Shown here: positions 13,400 to 40,354 of the stretch, one piece after another
How positions within the stretch are numbered: the stretch's first letter is position 1
Layout: each line of letters starts with the position of its first letter
Origin: Leucobacter sp. OLIS6
Lineage (GTDB): Bacteria > Actinomycetota > Actinomycetes > Actinomycetales > Microbacteriaceae
DNA length: 64,000 bases
Assembly (NCBI RefSeq): GCF_002752355.1
Contig: NZ_MRAV01000008.1
Coordinates: 248,001 to 312,000, forward strand
Direction of reading: 5' to 3'
Position numbers and translations under genes: made by a program
Notes under the pieces: generated by a model
The model's input: the letters and a program-made list of their open reading frames with translations, nothing else
Told to the model about the DNA's origin: nothing
Databases searched by the model: none

Positions 13400-13472
13400 G
13401 GCCCCATCGTATAGCGGCCTAGTACGCCGCCCTCTCACGGCGGTAACGCGGGTTCGAATCCCGCTGGGGTCA
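13400..13472 (+). tRNA. tRNA-Glu (anticodon CTC)
   Basis: Clover-leaf tRNA. The acceptor stem is ggcccca pairing with tggggtc (one G-T pair). The anticodon stem ccgcc/ggcgg holds the loop CTCTCAC, with anticodon CTC at 13434-13436. The T-arm is gcggg-ttcgaat-cccgc. The discriminator base is A at 13472, followed by cc. A promoter-like TTGTGG (13321) and CAGAAT (13345) lie upstream with 18-base spacing, which is weak evidence. A long terminator hairpin follows directly. Confidence 0.96.
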
Positions 13473-22626: not shown

Positions 22627-22652
22627 TGCGTCTCTGGCTGTGCGACCGCCGT

Positions 22653-22733
22653 GCGTTCAGCCGGATTTGAGCACTCAGCCGGACGATTTCGTTCCCGCGA
22701 TCCGGCTGAGCGTTCAAATCCGGCTGAATGCGC
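22653..22733. repeat. Palindromic repeat with 18-bp period, copy A1
   Basis: About 30-base arms around a 17-base loop (22684-22700). Each arm holds two copies of CAGCCGGA exactly 18 bases apart (22658 and 22676), mirrored as TCCGGCTG at 22701 and 22719. Arms differ at only a few positions. The same design recurs at 23738-23836 and, diverged, at 31784-31848. It lies between the ddl terminator and the DUF559 gene. Confidence 0.85.
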
Positions 22734-22851
22734 GCGCCGCCTCGGCGCCTGCCAGCAGCTTTCGCCGTCCACAACGCGGGAACACGAGGAAGCCGTCCAC
22801 AGATCTCACTGATCCGAGGCATGAATCGTGCGCCGCGGGCAGCCTGGGACG

Positions 22852-23679
22852 ATGCATCTCGAACACCTCCTCAGATCCACCGGCGGAATCGCGCGAATCA
22901 GTCGCCTGATCGAACTCGGCTGCTCGCGCCGCGAACTCGCGGACCGTCTCGCTTCGGGGCGATGCATTCGCCCGCAGCGGGGATGGATCGCGCTCCGCGA
23001 GACGGATACCGATCTGCTGTTCGCCGCCGAGCATCATGTCGTGCTCAGCTGCGTCACTCAGGCGAAGCGAATGGGACTCTGGGTGACGGATCCTCATCCG
23101 GTCCACCATGTGGCGGTACCGCGCCGGAACGCCAAGATCCGCGGTCCGTCTCCGGTGGTGCACTGGCACCGGCCGCTCGTTCCGAGGCGCGCGTTCGTTC
23201 TCGAAGATTCGGTGGAGAACGTGCTCGCCCTGGTCGCTCACTGCCAGCCTCGAGAAGAGGCGCTGGTGGTCTGGGAATCGGCGCTCAACCGGGGCTTGAC
23301 CGACCATTCCGCGATGGCTGCGCTACCGCTCAACGGTCGCGCCCGAAGCGTTCTCGAGGCGTGTACGCCCTTCTCCGATTCGGGACTCGAGACCAAGGTC
23401 AAACACCGACTGCGCTGGCTGGGTGTGCCGATCCACGAGCAGAGCTGGGTGCACGGGCGTCGCGTCGACCTGCTGATCGGGAGCCGGCTCGTGGTGCAGA
23501 TCGACGGTGCTCATCACACCGGTGCACAGCGGGATGCCGACATCGCCCATGACGCGCAGTTGGCGCTGCGCGGGTATCGGGTCATCAGAGTGAGCTACTT
23601 CCAGGTGATGCGCGAGTGGGAGGCCGTGCAGCAACTCATCGTCGGTGCGATCGCACGGGGCGAGCATCTTGCACGATAG
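22852..23679 (+). CDS. DUF559 endonuclease-like protein with AbiEi-type N-terminus
   Basis: 275-residue protein. The N-terminus (HLLRSTGGIARISRLIELGCSRRELADRLASG) resembles the winged-helix found in AbiEi-family antitoxins. The C-terminal third is a DUF559/Vsr-like nuclease fold: an acidic start (DSGLETKVKHRLRWLG), RVDLLIGSRLVVQIDGAHH, then LALRGYRVIRVSYFQVM. The D...(I/V)DG..H arrangement fits a PD-(D/E)xK-type active site. ATG 22852 is preferred over GTG 22828; neither has a strong ribosome site. It is monocistronic and flanked closely by two copies of a palindromic repeat (22653-22733 and 23738-23836). Such genes are frequent singletons in Microbacteriaceae, with unknown role. Confidence 0.8.
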   Translation: MHLEHLLRSTGGIARISRLIELGCSRRELADRLASGRCIRPQRGWIALRETDTDLLFAAEHHVVLSCVTQAKRMGLWVTDPHPVHHVAVPRRNAKIRGPSPVVHWHRPLVPRRAFVLEDSVENVLALVAHCQPREEALVVWESALNRGLTDHSAMAALPLNGRARSVLEACTPFSDSGLETKVKHRLRWLGVPIHEQSWVHGRRVDLLIGSRLVVQIDGAHHTGAQRDADIAHDAQLALRGYRVIRVSYFQVMREWEAVQQLIVGAIARGEHLAR

Positions 23680-23737
23680 CGGTGGAGGGGGCGGCGCCGG
23701 AGTCGGGATCGGCGCCGGAGAGCTGCTGTTGAGAGGC

Positions 23738-23836
23738 TCCGCCCTGCGCACTCAGCCGGATTTGAACACTCAGCCGGACGAATTCGCACCGAGGAACCGG
23801 CTGAGCGTTCAAATCCGGCTGAGTGAACAGGGCGGA
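23738..23836. repeat. Palindromic repeat with 18-bp period, copy A2
   Basis: Longer version of copy A1: arms of about 40 bases with only three or four mismatches, from tccgccctg at 23738 to cagggcgga at 23836. CAGCCGGA motifs start at 23753 and 23771 (18 apart), mirrored by CCGGCTG at 23797 and TCCGGCTG at 23814. It lies 58 bases after the DUF559 stop. The rest of the 348-base gap (to 24027) shows a duplicated ggcgccggag (23691 and 23711) and purine-rich spacer, with no gene I can support. Confidence 0.87.
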
Positions 23837-24027
23837 ACGCAAGAAGAGTCGAAGTCGGGCGGTGAGGCAGGAAGCAGGTAGAGAGACCTCAATCAGGCGG
23901 CGAGGCCGAAGCCGGGCAGCGAGAGGAGCCGAACAGGAGTCAGCCAGGCAGCGGGAATGCCTGTGCGAAGGGCCAGGCCAAAGGGCAGGGCGAAGCGCGA
24001 TCCTGGCGCCTCATCTTCGGGGTGCGT

Positions 24028-24546
24028 CTACTGCAGCTTCGACAGGTCGAGCGTGTCGGAGACGCTGGAGCACTTGCGGGTCTGGGGGAGCAGCTTGGCG
24101 ACCGCACCCAGCTCCTGCACGGCCTCGGTGCCCGAGGCCTTCTTGGAGTCGACGATCACCTCGAGGCCGGGGCTGCGCCCGTACGCCTCGAAACGATAGA
24201 GGGGAGCGCGCGACCGATCGATGATCCAGTCGACGCCGTCGACCGCGACGCACTCCTGCGTGGTCGGTCCCGTCGATTCGATCCCGCAGCGCAGCAGCAC
24301 GGTGGCGGGATCGCCCCACGCGCCGGTCGACTGGGCGTTGGTGGTGCGCTTCTCGAAATCGCCGATGGTGGCGGGAAGGCGCACGGTCACGTCGGCGCAG
24401 CGCGGGTTGTTCGCGTCCTTCGCCGGATCCATCGGCACCTCGCCCGCGCATCCCGTGAGCCCGAAGCTCAACCCCACCGCCACGACGGCCGTTGCCGAAA
24501 GCGCGAACGCGCGCCGAGGTCCTGCGGGGAAGGAAAAGGATCGCAC
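24028..24546 (-). CDS. DUF3515 family lipoprotein
   Basis: 172-residue secreted lipoprotein. The signal segment runs to a lipobox LTGC with the lipidated Cys at residue 33. The mature domain carries the DUF3515 pattern: ANNPRCADVTVRLP, then WGDPATVLLRCGI and CVAVDGVDWI, with several cysteines that could pair outside the membrane. The start is GTG 24546, immediately before the signal sequence. Located opposite thiL, as is usual in actinobacteria where a DUF3515 gene sits between ddl and thiL. Function is unknown. Confidence 0.85.
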   Translation of the reverse strand: MRSFSFPAGPRRAFALSATAVVAVGLSFGLTGCAGEVPMDPAKDANNPRCADVTVRLPATIGDFEKRTTNAQSTGAWGDPATVLLRCGIESTGPTTQECVAVDGVDWIIDRSRAPLYRFEAYGRSPGLEVIVDSKKASGTEAVQELGAVAKLLPQTRKCSSVSDTLDLSKLQ

Positions 24547-29494: not shown

Positions 29495-29505
29495 CGACGC
29501 GCACC

Positions 29506-29562
29506 GAGCGGGCGGCGCGGATCCGGGCTCGAACACCGATCCCGGATCCGCACCGCCCGCTC
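29506..29562. promoter_or_regulatory. Long hairpin between gabT and gabD
   Basis: 22-base arms (29506-29527 and 29541-29562) with a single mismatch and a 13-base loop, starting 12 bases after the gabT stop. There is no T-run. It may stabilise gabT mRNA or reduce read-through into gabD. Confidence 0.6.
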
Positions 29563-29597
29563 GACCCGCAGTTCAGAACACCGAAAGGACACCCCTC

Positions 29598-31727: not shown

Positions 31728-31783
31728 CGGATGAGCGTACCCGGTCGGGCTCGATCGCTTCCCGGGCGGTTCCCCGTCATGCA

Positions 31784-31848
31784 TTCGGATATCTGCACGG
31801 ATTCGGATCGCTCCTGCTCGACACGTCCGAATCAGTGCGGATCTCCGA
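31784..31848. repeat. Palindromic repeat with 18-bp period, diverged copy B
   Basis: Imperfect inverted repeat (31784-31809 with 31824-31848, about 80% complementary). Its left arm has ATTCGGAT twice at 18-base spacing (31783 and 31801), mirrored by TCCGAAT (31826) and TCCGA (31844), again 18 apart. Aligned with copies A1 and A2 it keeps the frame CA..CGGAT.T..GCAC..A..CGGA. It lies in the divergent rsmD-recG region, so it is not simply a terminator. Confidence 0.65.
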
Positions 31849-31950
31849 GGCGGTGAGGCGGGGAGAGCAGGAAGGCAGGGAAGGCAGGGAGCCCCCGGGG
31901 GACGGATCAAGATCGACTCCGGTGTCGGAGGTGCCCGATAGCCTGGAGAC

Positions 31951-40292: not shown

Positions 40293-40354
40293 CATCGAAC
40301 GGACTCAAATTGACCTTTCGGTGCCGTGAATGGTCAATTTGAGTCCGTTCGATG
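40293..40354. repeat. Perfect 23-bp inverted repeat
   Basis: Arms 40293-40315 and 40332-40354 are exactly complementary over 23 bases with a 16-base loop. They are AT-richer than the surroundings (core ggactcaaattgacc). The right arm contains the stop codon and last codons of the DUF1648 gene, and the left arm ends 26 bases before the GyrI-like start. A run of eight C (40283-40290) follows. It may be a terminator or processing hairpin between the two genes. Confidence 0.8.

Follow-up and report, generated by a model that had tools for sequence, protein, structure and literature searches.

We read the palindromes analysed here, with a rough probability of 0.6, as the scattered recognition sites of an AbiEi-type/Vsr-EDxHD-type PD-(D/E)XK protein that spreads or maintains them. 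The key to the palindrome family is a DUF559 gene in the window (the whole 64,000-nucleotide stretch of Leucobacter DNA analysed), which two of the window's three palindromes bracket and which does not appear in the first-pass annotation. The features that carry this reading are visible in the sequences: the matched pairing of gene and palindrome, the scatter of the copies, their strict geometry, the conserved nuclease residues and the turnover between sister genomes.

The palindromes of the window and their family

Two palindromes of family A, element 1 (22658-22726; arms 22658-22683 and 22701-22726, loop 22684-22700) and element 2 (23753-23821; arms 23753-23778 and 23796-23821, loop 23779-23795), and one of family B, element 3 (31782-31851; arms 31782-31807 and 31826-31851, loop 31808-31825), were located in the window, none with an assigned strand. 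The complementarity of element 2 reaches out to 23738-23836. All three consist of two 26-base arms, within each of which a box ending in CGGA is repeated 18 bases on, and all are predicted to form long hairpins. The dyads that the first-pass annotation had described are real, and the common frame it had proposed, CANNCGGATNTNNGCACNNANNCGGA with up to three mismatches, matches exactly the six arms of these elements, compared with a mean of 0.24 matches (maximum 1) in 100 shuffles of the window. A structural scan of the reversed window and of three block shuffles gave no matches. The proposed loop of 14-17 bases was inaccurate, since the distance from the inner CGGA to TCCG is 17, 17 and 18 bases in elements 1, 2 and 3. 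The proposed two 8-mer copies per arm describe element 1, which has four perfect copies of CAGCCGGA, but elements 2 and 3 deviate: one inner copy is mismatched in element 2 (CAGCCGGT), and element 3 has two copies of ATTCGGAT in its left arm, whereas its right arm combines one good copy with an outer box that is degenerate.

Element 1 lies upstream of the DUF559 gene and behind a terminator-like hairpin of ddl, element 2 lies downstream of the same gene between convergent genes, and element 3 lies in the divergent rsmD-recG region, where the corresponding place in a sister genome is occupied by an element of family C. The names ddl, recG, rsmD and DUF3515 are those we take to apply to window genes from their sequences. 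The window also holds a near-perfect 27-base inverted repeat at 40293-40354 (96%, 8-base loop) that is A+T-richer than its surroundings and unrelated to the elements, and another at 29505-29563 (93%, 5-base loop) that is probably a terminator, with genes on either side that are presumably of aminobutyrate type. A tRNA at 13400-13472 is the window's sole Rfam match at gathering thresholds.

The first-pass annotation had staked the family on its occurring at more than three loci and on compensatory changes between its arms, and both were found. An initial count with CAGCCGGA-N10-CAGCCGGA at two mismatches (52 matches versus 106 in the control) was replaced by a covariance model, which, at E ≤ 0.01, found at least 33 sites across the 3.33 Mb of the genome, including 18 outside its training set; the total is a lower bound, as 150 of 5345 first-look candidates were scored, and it includes one doubtful site (C21:14910, 86% GC). 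Across 15 aligned elements the arms covary, with changes at both positions in 16 of 26 pairs (a count at least as high in 16 of 500 shuffles), 89% of cells paired (69.7% when shuffled) and a covariation score of 0.49 versus 0.15 (reached by none of 500 shuffles and at most 0.14 in slid registers), although these figures lean upward because several of the 15 elements came from a scan that required pairing. Presence in relatives, also suggested as a check, was examined in 60 genomes and extends from this genome to at least 17 of 36 other Leucobacter and at least one of 23 genomes outside the genus.

The gene contexts of 32 elements in this genome were assigned with a codon-usage model trained on seven window genes (16 tandem, 13 convergent, two divergent and one within a predicted coding sequence). 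This model failed to call the DUF559 gene, so that element 1 was filed as convergent though it is tandem, and the corrected setting is 17 tandem, 12 convergent, two divergent and one inside a coding sequence. With 31 of 32 outside predicted coding sequences, the elements are scattered and mostly intergenic, at a copy number at the low end for REPs. Two elements that by eye had seemed to lie in coding sequence (C18:95707 and C5:18532) were both set between genes by the model.

A nuclease-fold gene and its palindromes

The gene bracketed by elements 1 and 2 occupies 22852-23679 on the forward strand and encodes an AbiEi-like/DUF559 protein with a nuclease fold, as defined by its open reading frame, Pfam, an alignment of relatives and the predicted fold. 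Its frame is open from a GTG at 22828, and the alignment places the probable start at the ATG at 22852. In Pfam the protein matches DUF559 above the cut-off (E = 1.9e-7) and MTES_1575 and AbiEi_4 below it; PADLOC gives AbiEi (E = 5.2e-6) and a weak HEase match (0.016), and NCBIfam gives no family at E ≤ 0.1. For the AlphaFold2 model (mean pLDDT 89.4), the top-ranked Foldseek match is the AbiEi antitoxin 6y8q (E = 9.3e-5, TM 0.38 on the query), followed by a mitoribosomal chain of T. gondii, and the C-terminal part resembles the homing endonuclease I-Bth0305I (3r3p) and 3hrl both by fold and by profile. Residues D208, D220, D232 and D236 are invariant in all 102 relatives and H224 is present in 90 of them; E182 is also invariant but lies within the peptide that collected 80 of the relatives. 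Among 24 partner proteins, Pfam matched DUF559 in all and AbiEi_4 in ten, with no Y1/HUH domain among the matches.

Plasmid and phage collections each yielded a single weak relative (30.9% and 29.4% identity, respectively), and on this ground we ruled out plasmid- or phage-borne spread. Just one further relative was found in the same genome (L048, 2420-2936 on G000:C20); it is apparently degenerate, since its two matches sit in different frames. A family B element lies about 150 bp upstream of it, and the corresponding place in the sister genome is occupied by a family C palindrome on its own.

Palindromes are strongly concentrated beside genes of this kind. At 80 loci, the best 80 of 98 relatives (from Leucobacter, Microbacterium, Agromyces and a few other Microbacteriaceae/Actinomycetota), the 250-bp bins next to the gene contained a palindrome with 20 or more of 24 pairs in 27 of 78 and in 29 of 80 cases, compared with 47 of 4964 for bins more than 1 kb away. 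After loci from the genus were added (103 loci with 102 distinct proteins; threshold 18 of 24 pairs), a palindrome was found within 350 bp upstream of the gene at 66 of 102 loci, downstream at 61, on both sides at 45 and on at least one side at 82, the remaining 20 having none at this threshold. Single 350-bp control windows contained a palindrome in 48 of 1193 cases, so that about 8% would be expected for a pair of them. At a relaxed threshold many of the palindromes are ordinary terminator-like hairpins, and each count here uses the threshold stated with it. The upstream inverted repeats have arms of 24-26 bp and lie about 100-190 bp ahead of many start codons.

The palindrome sequence varies from gene to gene, and it does so in step with the protein. 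Where both copies are present, the upstream and downstream palindromes are more alike than 95% of between-locus comparisons at 42 of 45 loci. Across 82 loci, protein identity and palindrome similarity are correlated (r = 0.50), which none of 2000 permutations reached (best 0.09). The same palindrome is found in 81-100% of pairs with at least 65% protein identity, in 12% of those at 60-65% and in at most 1.2% of those below 60%. When 67 same-palindrome gene pairs with long flanks were compared, 45 were at orthologous sites, ten had one flank in common and 12 had none, which indicates that the gene is mostly inherited in place; another 19 gene pairs share a site but have different palindromes. 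The gene of Leucobacter sp. Ag1 (L119/L349) breaks the same-family rule, its upstream palindrome being D-type and its downstream one C-type. Judged from these sequence comparisons, gene and palindrome almost certainly form a matched pair.

Copies of a gene's own palindrome also lie elsewhere in the genomes that carry it. Among 16 Microbacterium genomes, CAGGTCAACC-N9-CAGGA (at most one mismatch) had 12-58 copies in each of the six cognate genomes and one copy in the other ten, while its backward-pattern control had two matches in total across the 16; AAGGAGANCTC-N7-GAAGGA had 8-46 copies in each of its six cognate genomes and none in the other ten, with one match for its control. A stray match thus occurred in one of 20 non-cognate comparisons of genome and palindrome. 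These are not 12 independent events, because the six genomes of each family are related and mostly share the gene site. Across 65 loci and several families, 153 palindromes lie farther than 1 kb from the gene, and ten of them match the palindrome of their own locus (0.2 expected), although some of the ten loci concerned are orthologues of one another.

The geometry of the copies is strict. Boxes recur every 18 bases in the window's families and every 19 in both Microbacterium families, and in the elements of 40 fetched regions the loops, for which 14-21 bases were allowed, are 17 or 18 bases in 40 of 40 elements of family i and 17 in 20 of 20 of family ii. Family i has nearly invariant boxes, but its spacers are unpaired between arms (0.539 versus 0.574 with shuffled partners); the spacers are partly matched in family ii (0.662 versus 0.507) and strongly matched in the window's families. 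Because family i keeps its boxes without spacer pairing, we read the boxes as probably being recognised on double-stranded DNA with no need for a hairpin, while families ii, A and B are compatible with both possibilities. Some arms hold tandem runs of the 18/19-bp unit; in L396 (G065:C7:219465-219564) and L377 (G066:C1:1335956-1336074) the arms are iteron-like tandem runs of the 19-bp box unit.

Turnover between sister genomes

We compared the sites with those of Leucobacter sp. Ag1 (G018), a sister genome in which the start of recG is 97% identical at the protein level. At its ddl site, a 1389-bp segment corresponding to 22634-24022 (unstranded), with both palindromes and the gene, is missing, and no palindrome is left. 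In the window this segment is bounded by 7-bp direct repeats (TGCGTCT) at 22627-22633 and 24023-24029, which could be either a target duplication or deletion microhomology. About 195 bases of it, at 23828-24022 between element 2 and the next gene, are purine-rich and of low complexity. Thirty ddl loci comprise four that bear the gene, 21 without DUF559 in which the next gene follows within about 330 bp, and five unclassed. In a relaxed scan, long palindromes with 14-21-base loops were seen in three gene-less loci (L290, L308 and L314), and the four gene-bearing loci had palindromes at both ends in two cases, at one end in one and at neither in one (L302). The genes at the four occupied ddl sites group with one MAG gene in a single clade (0.986), so that a loss in G018 is as likely as a gain in the genome studied here.

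An element was found at the corresponding G018 place for 15 of the at least 33 sites plus one weaker case, some of them located by one flank. Fourteen of the 16 orthologous pairs were compared; L060/L337 was set aside because two elements face a single one, and L334/L343 because one element exceeds the limit of 0.01. In eight pairs the family is the same, with identities of 0.86-0.97; in the other six it differs (five B to C and one D to A), with identities of 0.61-0.65, the same level as between unrelated B and C elements (0.59-0.70). Flanking blocks at these six sites are 88-98% identical and start at a distance of up to about 180 bp, while the tens of bases adjoining the element often differ as well, so that the replaced tract exceeds the palindrome. 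Two of the six switches are less certain: just one flank is collinear in L322/L340, and L323 carries an additional weak element resembling family A. Such a switch cannot arise by point change at the rate seen in the flanks, whereas replacement or re-insertion can yield it.

The overall composition of the two genomes differs by a crude motif rule, which misfiles at least L066 and L280: 34 elements of the genome studied here (32 in the gene-context tally above) comprise 18 B, 12 A, two C and two D, and 34 elements of G018 comprise 16 C, ten A, six B, one D and one unassigned. C is also the family downstream of the G018 gene. At two sites the gene accompanies the palindrome in one genome and the palindrome stands alone in its sister. 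The gene-bearing genome is the one studied here at one site and G018 at the other, and the upstream side of one of the two is cut by a contig start. Twelve further sites were sought in G018, of which seven could be aligned, with no covariance-model match among the candidates scored at these alleles; the L067 allele is longer in G018. In the five that did not align (L050, L052, L058, L062 and L066), the flanks are separated by 0.8-2 kb of different DNA, one flank is absent or the contig is interrupted. Specifically, about 0.8-2.1 kb of other DNA lies between the flanks of L050, L052 and L058 in G018 (C42:28397-30806, C53:13086-14236 and C55:115665-116818).

Possible explanations and known systems

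We infer from these patterns a process of binding by the AbiEi-like part, cutting, and copying by repair. The AbiEi-like part would bind one arm (24-26 bp, with two boxes 18-19 bp apart), an assignment that fits the 23-bp inverted repeats that AbiEi and Rv2827c bind, two by AbiEi and four by Rv2827c, in their own promoters according to the available text of PMC7319586. The fixed centre of 17-18 bp would place two copies of the protein head to head; the nuclease part might then cut in or beside the palindrome, and during repair the palindrome, in some cases along with the gene, could be copied into another site or replace what is there. A palindrome on its own would then be a non-autonomous copy, comparable to a REPIN, and a gene enclosed by palindromes the autonomous form, comparable to a RAYT. 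We consider this full mobilisation mechanism moderately probable. Several observations count against mobilisation, namely that the gene is mostly inherited in place, that the G018 ddl allele is palindrome-free, that L302 and 20 of 102 loci overall have no palindrome at the thresholds applied and that the G018 gene has two palindrome families.

A regulatory reading would make the protein an AbiEi-like autorepressor, with the flanking palindromes as its operators, the scattered copies as a regulon or decoys and the nuclease part as secondary. The AbiEi and Rv2827c operators and the position of the upstream palindromes ahead of start codons agree with this, but a downstream copy is present at 61 of 102 loci, divergent promoter regions hold just two of 32 elements, orthologous places in the sister species are empty or of a different family and the nuclease residues are invariant, so that we regard it as unlikely. 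Somewhat less likely still is a free-standing homing endonuclease that cuts solitary palindromes so that its gene enters by repair, the palindromes spreading otherwise or being old host repeats. I-Bth0305I is the closest nuclease structure, the ddl-site gene is present in four of 30 loci as one clade, and at each of two sites one species has the gene while its sister has the palindrome alone, as expected if an empty allele keeps its site; the empty G018 ddl allele, however, has no palindrome, and homing leaves both the cognate scattered copies and the overwriting of one family by another unexplained. The protein resembles EDxHD/Vsr homing endonucleases such as I-Bth0305I in catalytic fold and profile, conserved acidic residues and patchy site occupancy, but its gene does not lie in an intron, and it has an AbiEi-like DNA-binding part and palindromic scattered sites.

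It is improbable that another enzyme encoded elsewhere (e.g. a Y1/RAYT or another transposase) moves the palindromes with the DUF559 gene as a passenger, given that this gene sits between matching palindromes and tracks their sequence and that a GTAG tag is found at none of 68 element ends. We give very little credence to a defence role, in which the nuclease would attack foreign DNA while the palindromes mark self or serve as sinks: the AbiEi-like part and its PADLOC match would suit it, but palindrome sequence and position differ between sister species. Transcription terminators or structured RNA, for which the predicted long hairpins and the convergent elements (13 of 32 by the codon model, 12 after correction) might speak, are the least credible of all and were ruled out on the absence of Rfam matches at gathering thresholds from the window's elements, the unpaired spacers of family i and a T tract, a feature of intrinsic terminators, at just one of 68 element ends; nor would a link to a nuclease gene be expected. 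Nothing here supports the suggestion in the first-pass annotation that the palindromes are sites of a chromosome-organising protein, and sites are gained and lost between sister species.

Its other suggestion, REP-like mobile repeats, holds as a functional likeness, the elements being scattered, nearly all intergenic, patchy, polymorphic and beside a cognate nuclease gene, but not in the strict sense. Two defining REP features that were tested, the GTAG tag and a Y1/HUH partner, were both absent (the former ruling out GTAG-type REPs), and we therefore do not file the family as REP. As far as the available text of PMC3116915 and PMC8266576 describes them, REP/REPIN sequences and their RAYT (TnpA_REP), together a "REPtron", are nonetheless the nearest parallel by analogy: both systems have short, intergenic, scattered palindromes, each family beside its own co-evolving gene, a gene that is mostly inherited in place, inverted-box pairs about 70-100 bp long and a cognate gene flanked by one palindrome family, as we also found here. 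Unlike the HUH Y1 enzyme of REPtrons, the partner here is a PD-(D/E)XK/DUF559 protein, the GTAG tag is absent, there are four boxes with an 18-19-bp period and family i has box symmetry without spacer pairing.

AbiEi/Rv2827c antitoxin operators, as the available text of PMC7319586 presents them, are similar in the N-terminal fold of the protein and in inverted repeats of about arm length near the gene, but here there is a C-terminal nuclease and copies lie downstream and genome-wide as well. An AbiEii nucleotidyltransferase toxin gene, the usual neighbour in type IV AbiE systems, was not noticed beside the gene on inspection of the window. The GTAG/CGTC palindromic repeats in the accessible part of PMC3733652 are likewise abundant intergenic palindromes; they differ in their tags, GTAG being absent here and CGTC occurring at nine of 68 element ends, a raw count without a chance baseline. 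An open-access literature search, with most subscription papers outside its scope, returned no pairing of DUF559 or AbiEi-DUF559 with palindromes among the matches listed, and in the portions of the literature examined the partner enzymes of REP-like repeats are HUH RAYTs only.

We see even odds that the system is a second, non-homologous REPtron, in which an AbiEi-DUF559 nuclease of restriction fold would own, spread and homogenise a private, genome-wide population of four-box palindromes. Within that picture, a change of specificity would lead to site-by-site overwriting, of which families B and C at the same positions in the two sister species would be an example. If a restriction-fold nuclease does have co-evolving palindromes of this kind, a REP-like way of life would have arisen more than once, and DUF559 proteins, whose domain is one of unknown function, would gain a testable role. 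Such pairs would also provide a natural series of co-diverging proteins and sites, including sister species in mid-switch at several places, and not every AbiEi-domain gene should be taken as an antitoxin.
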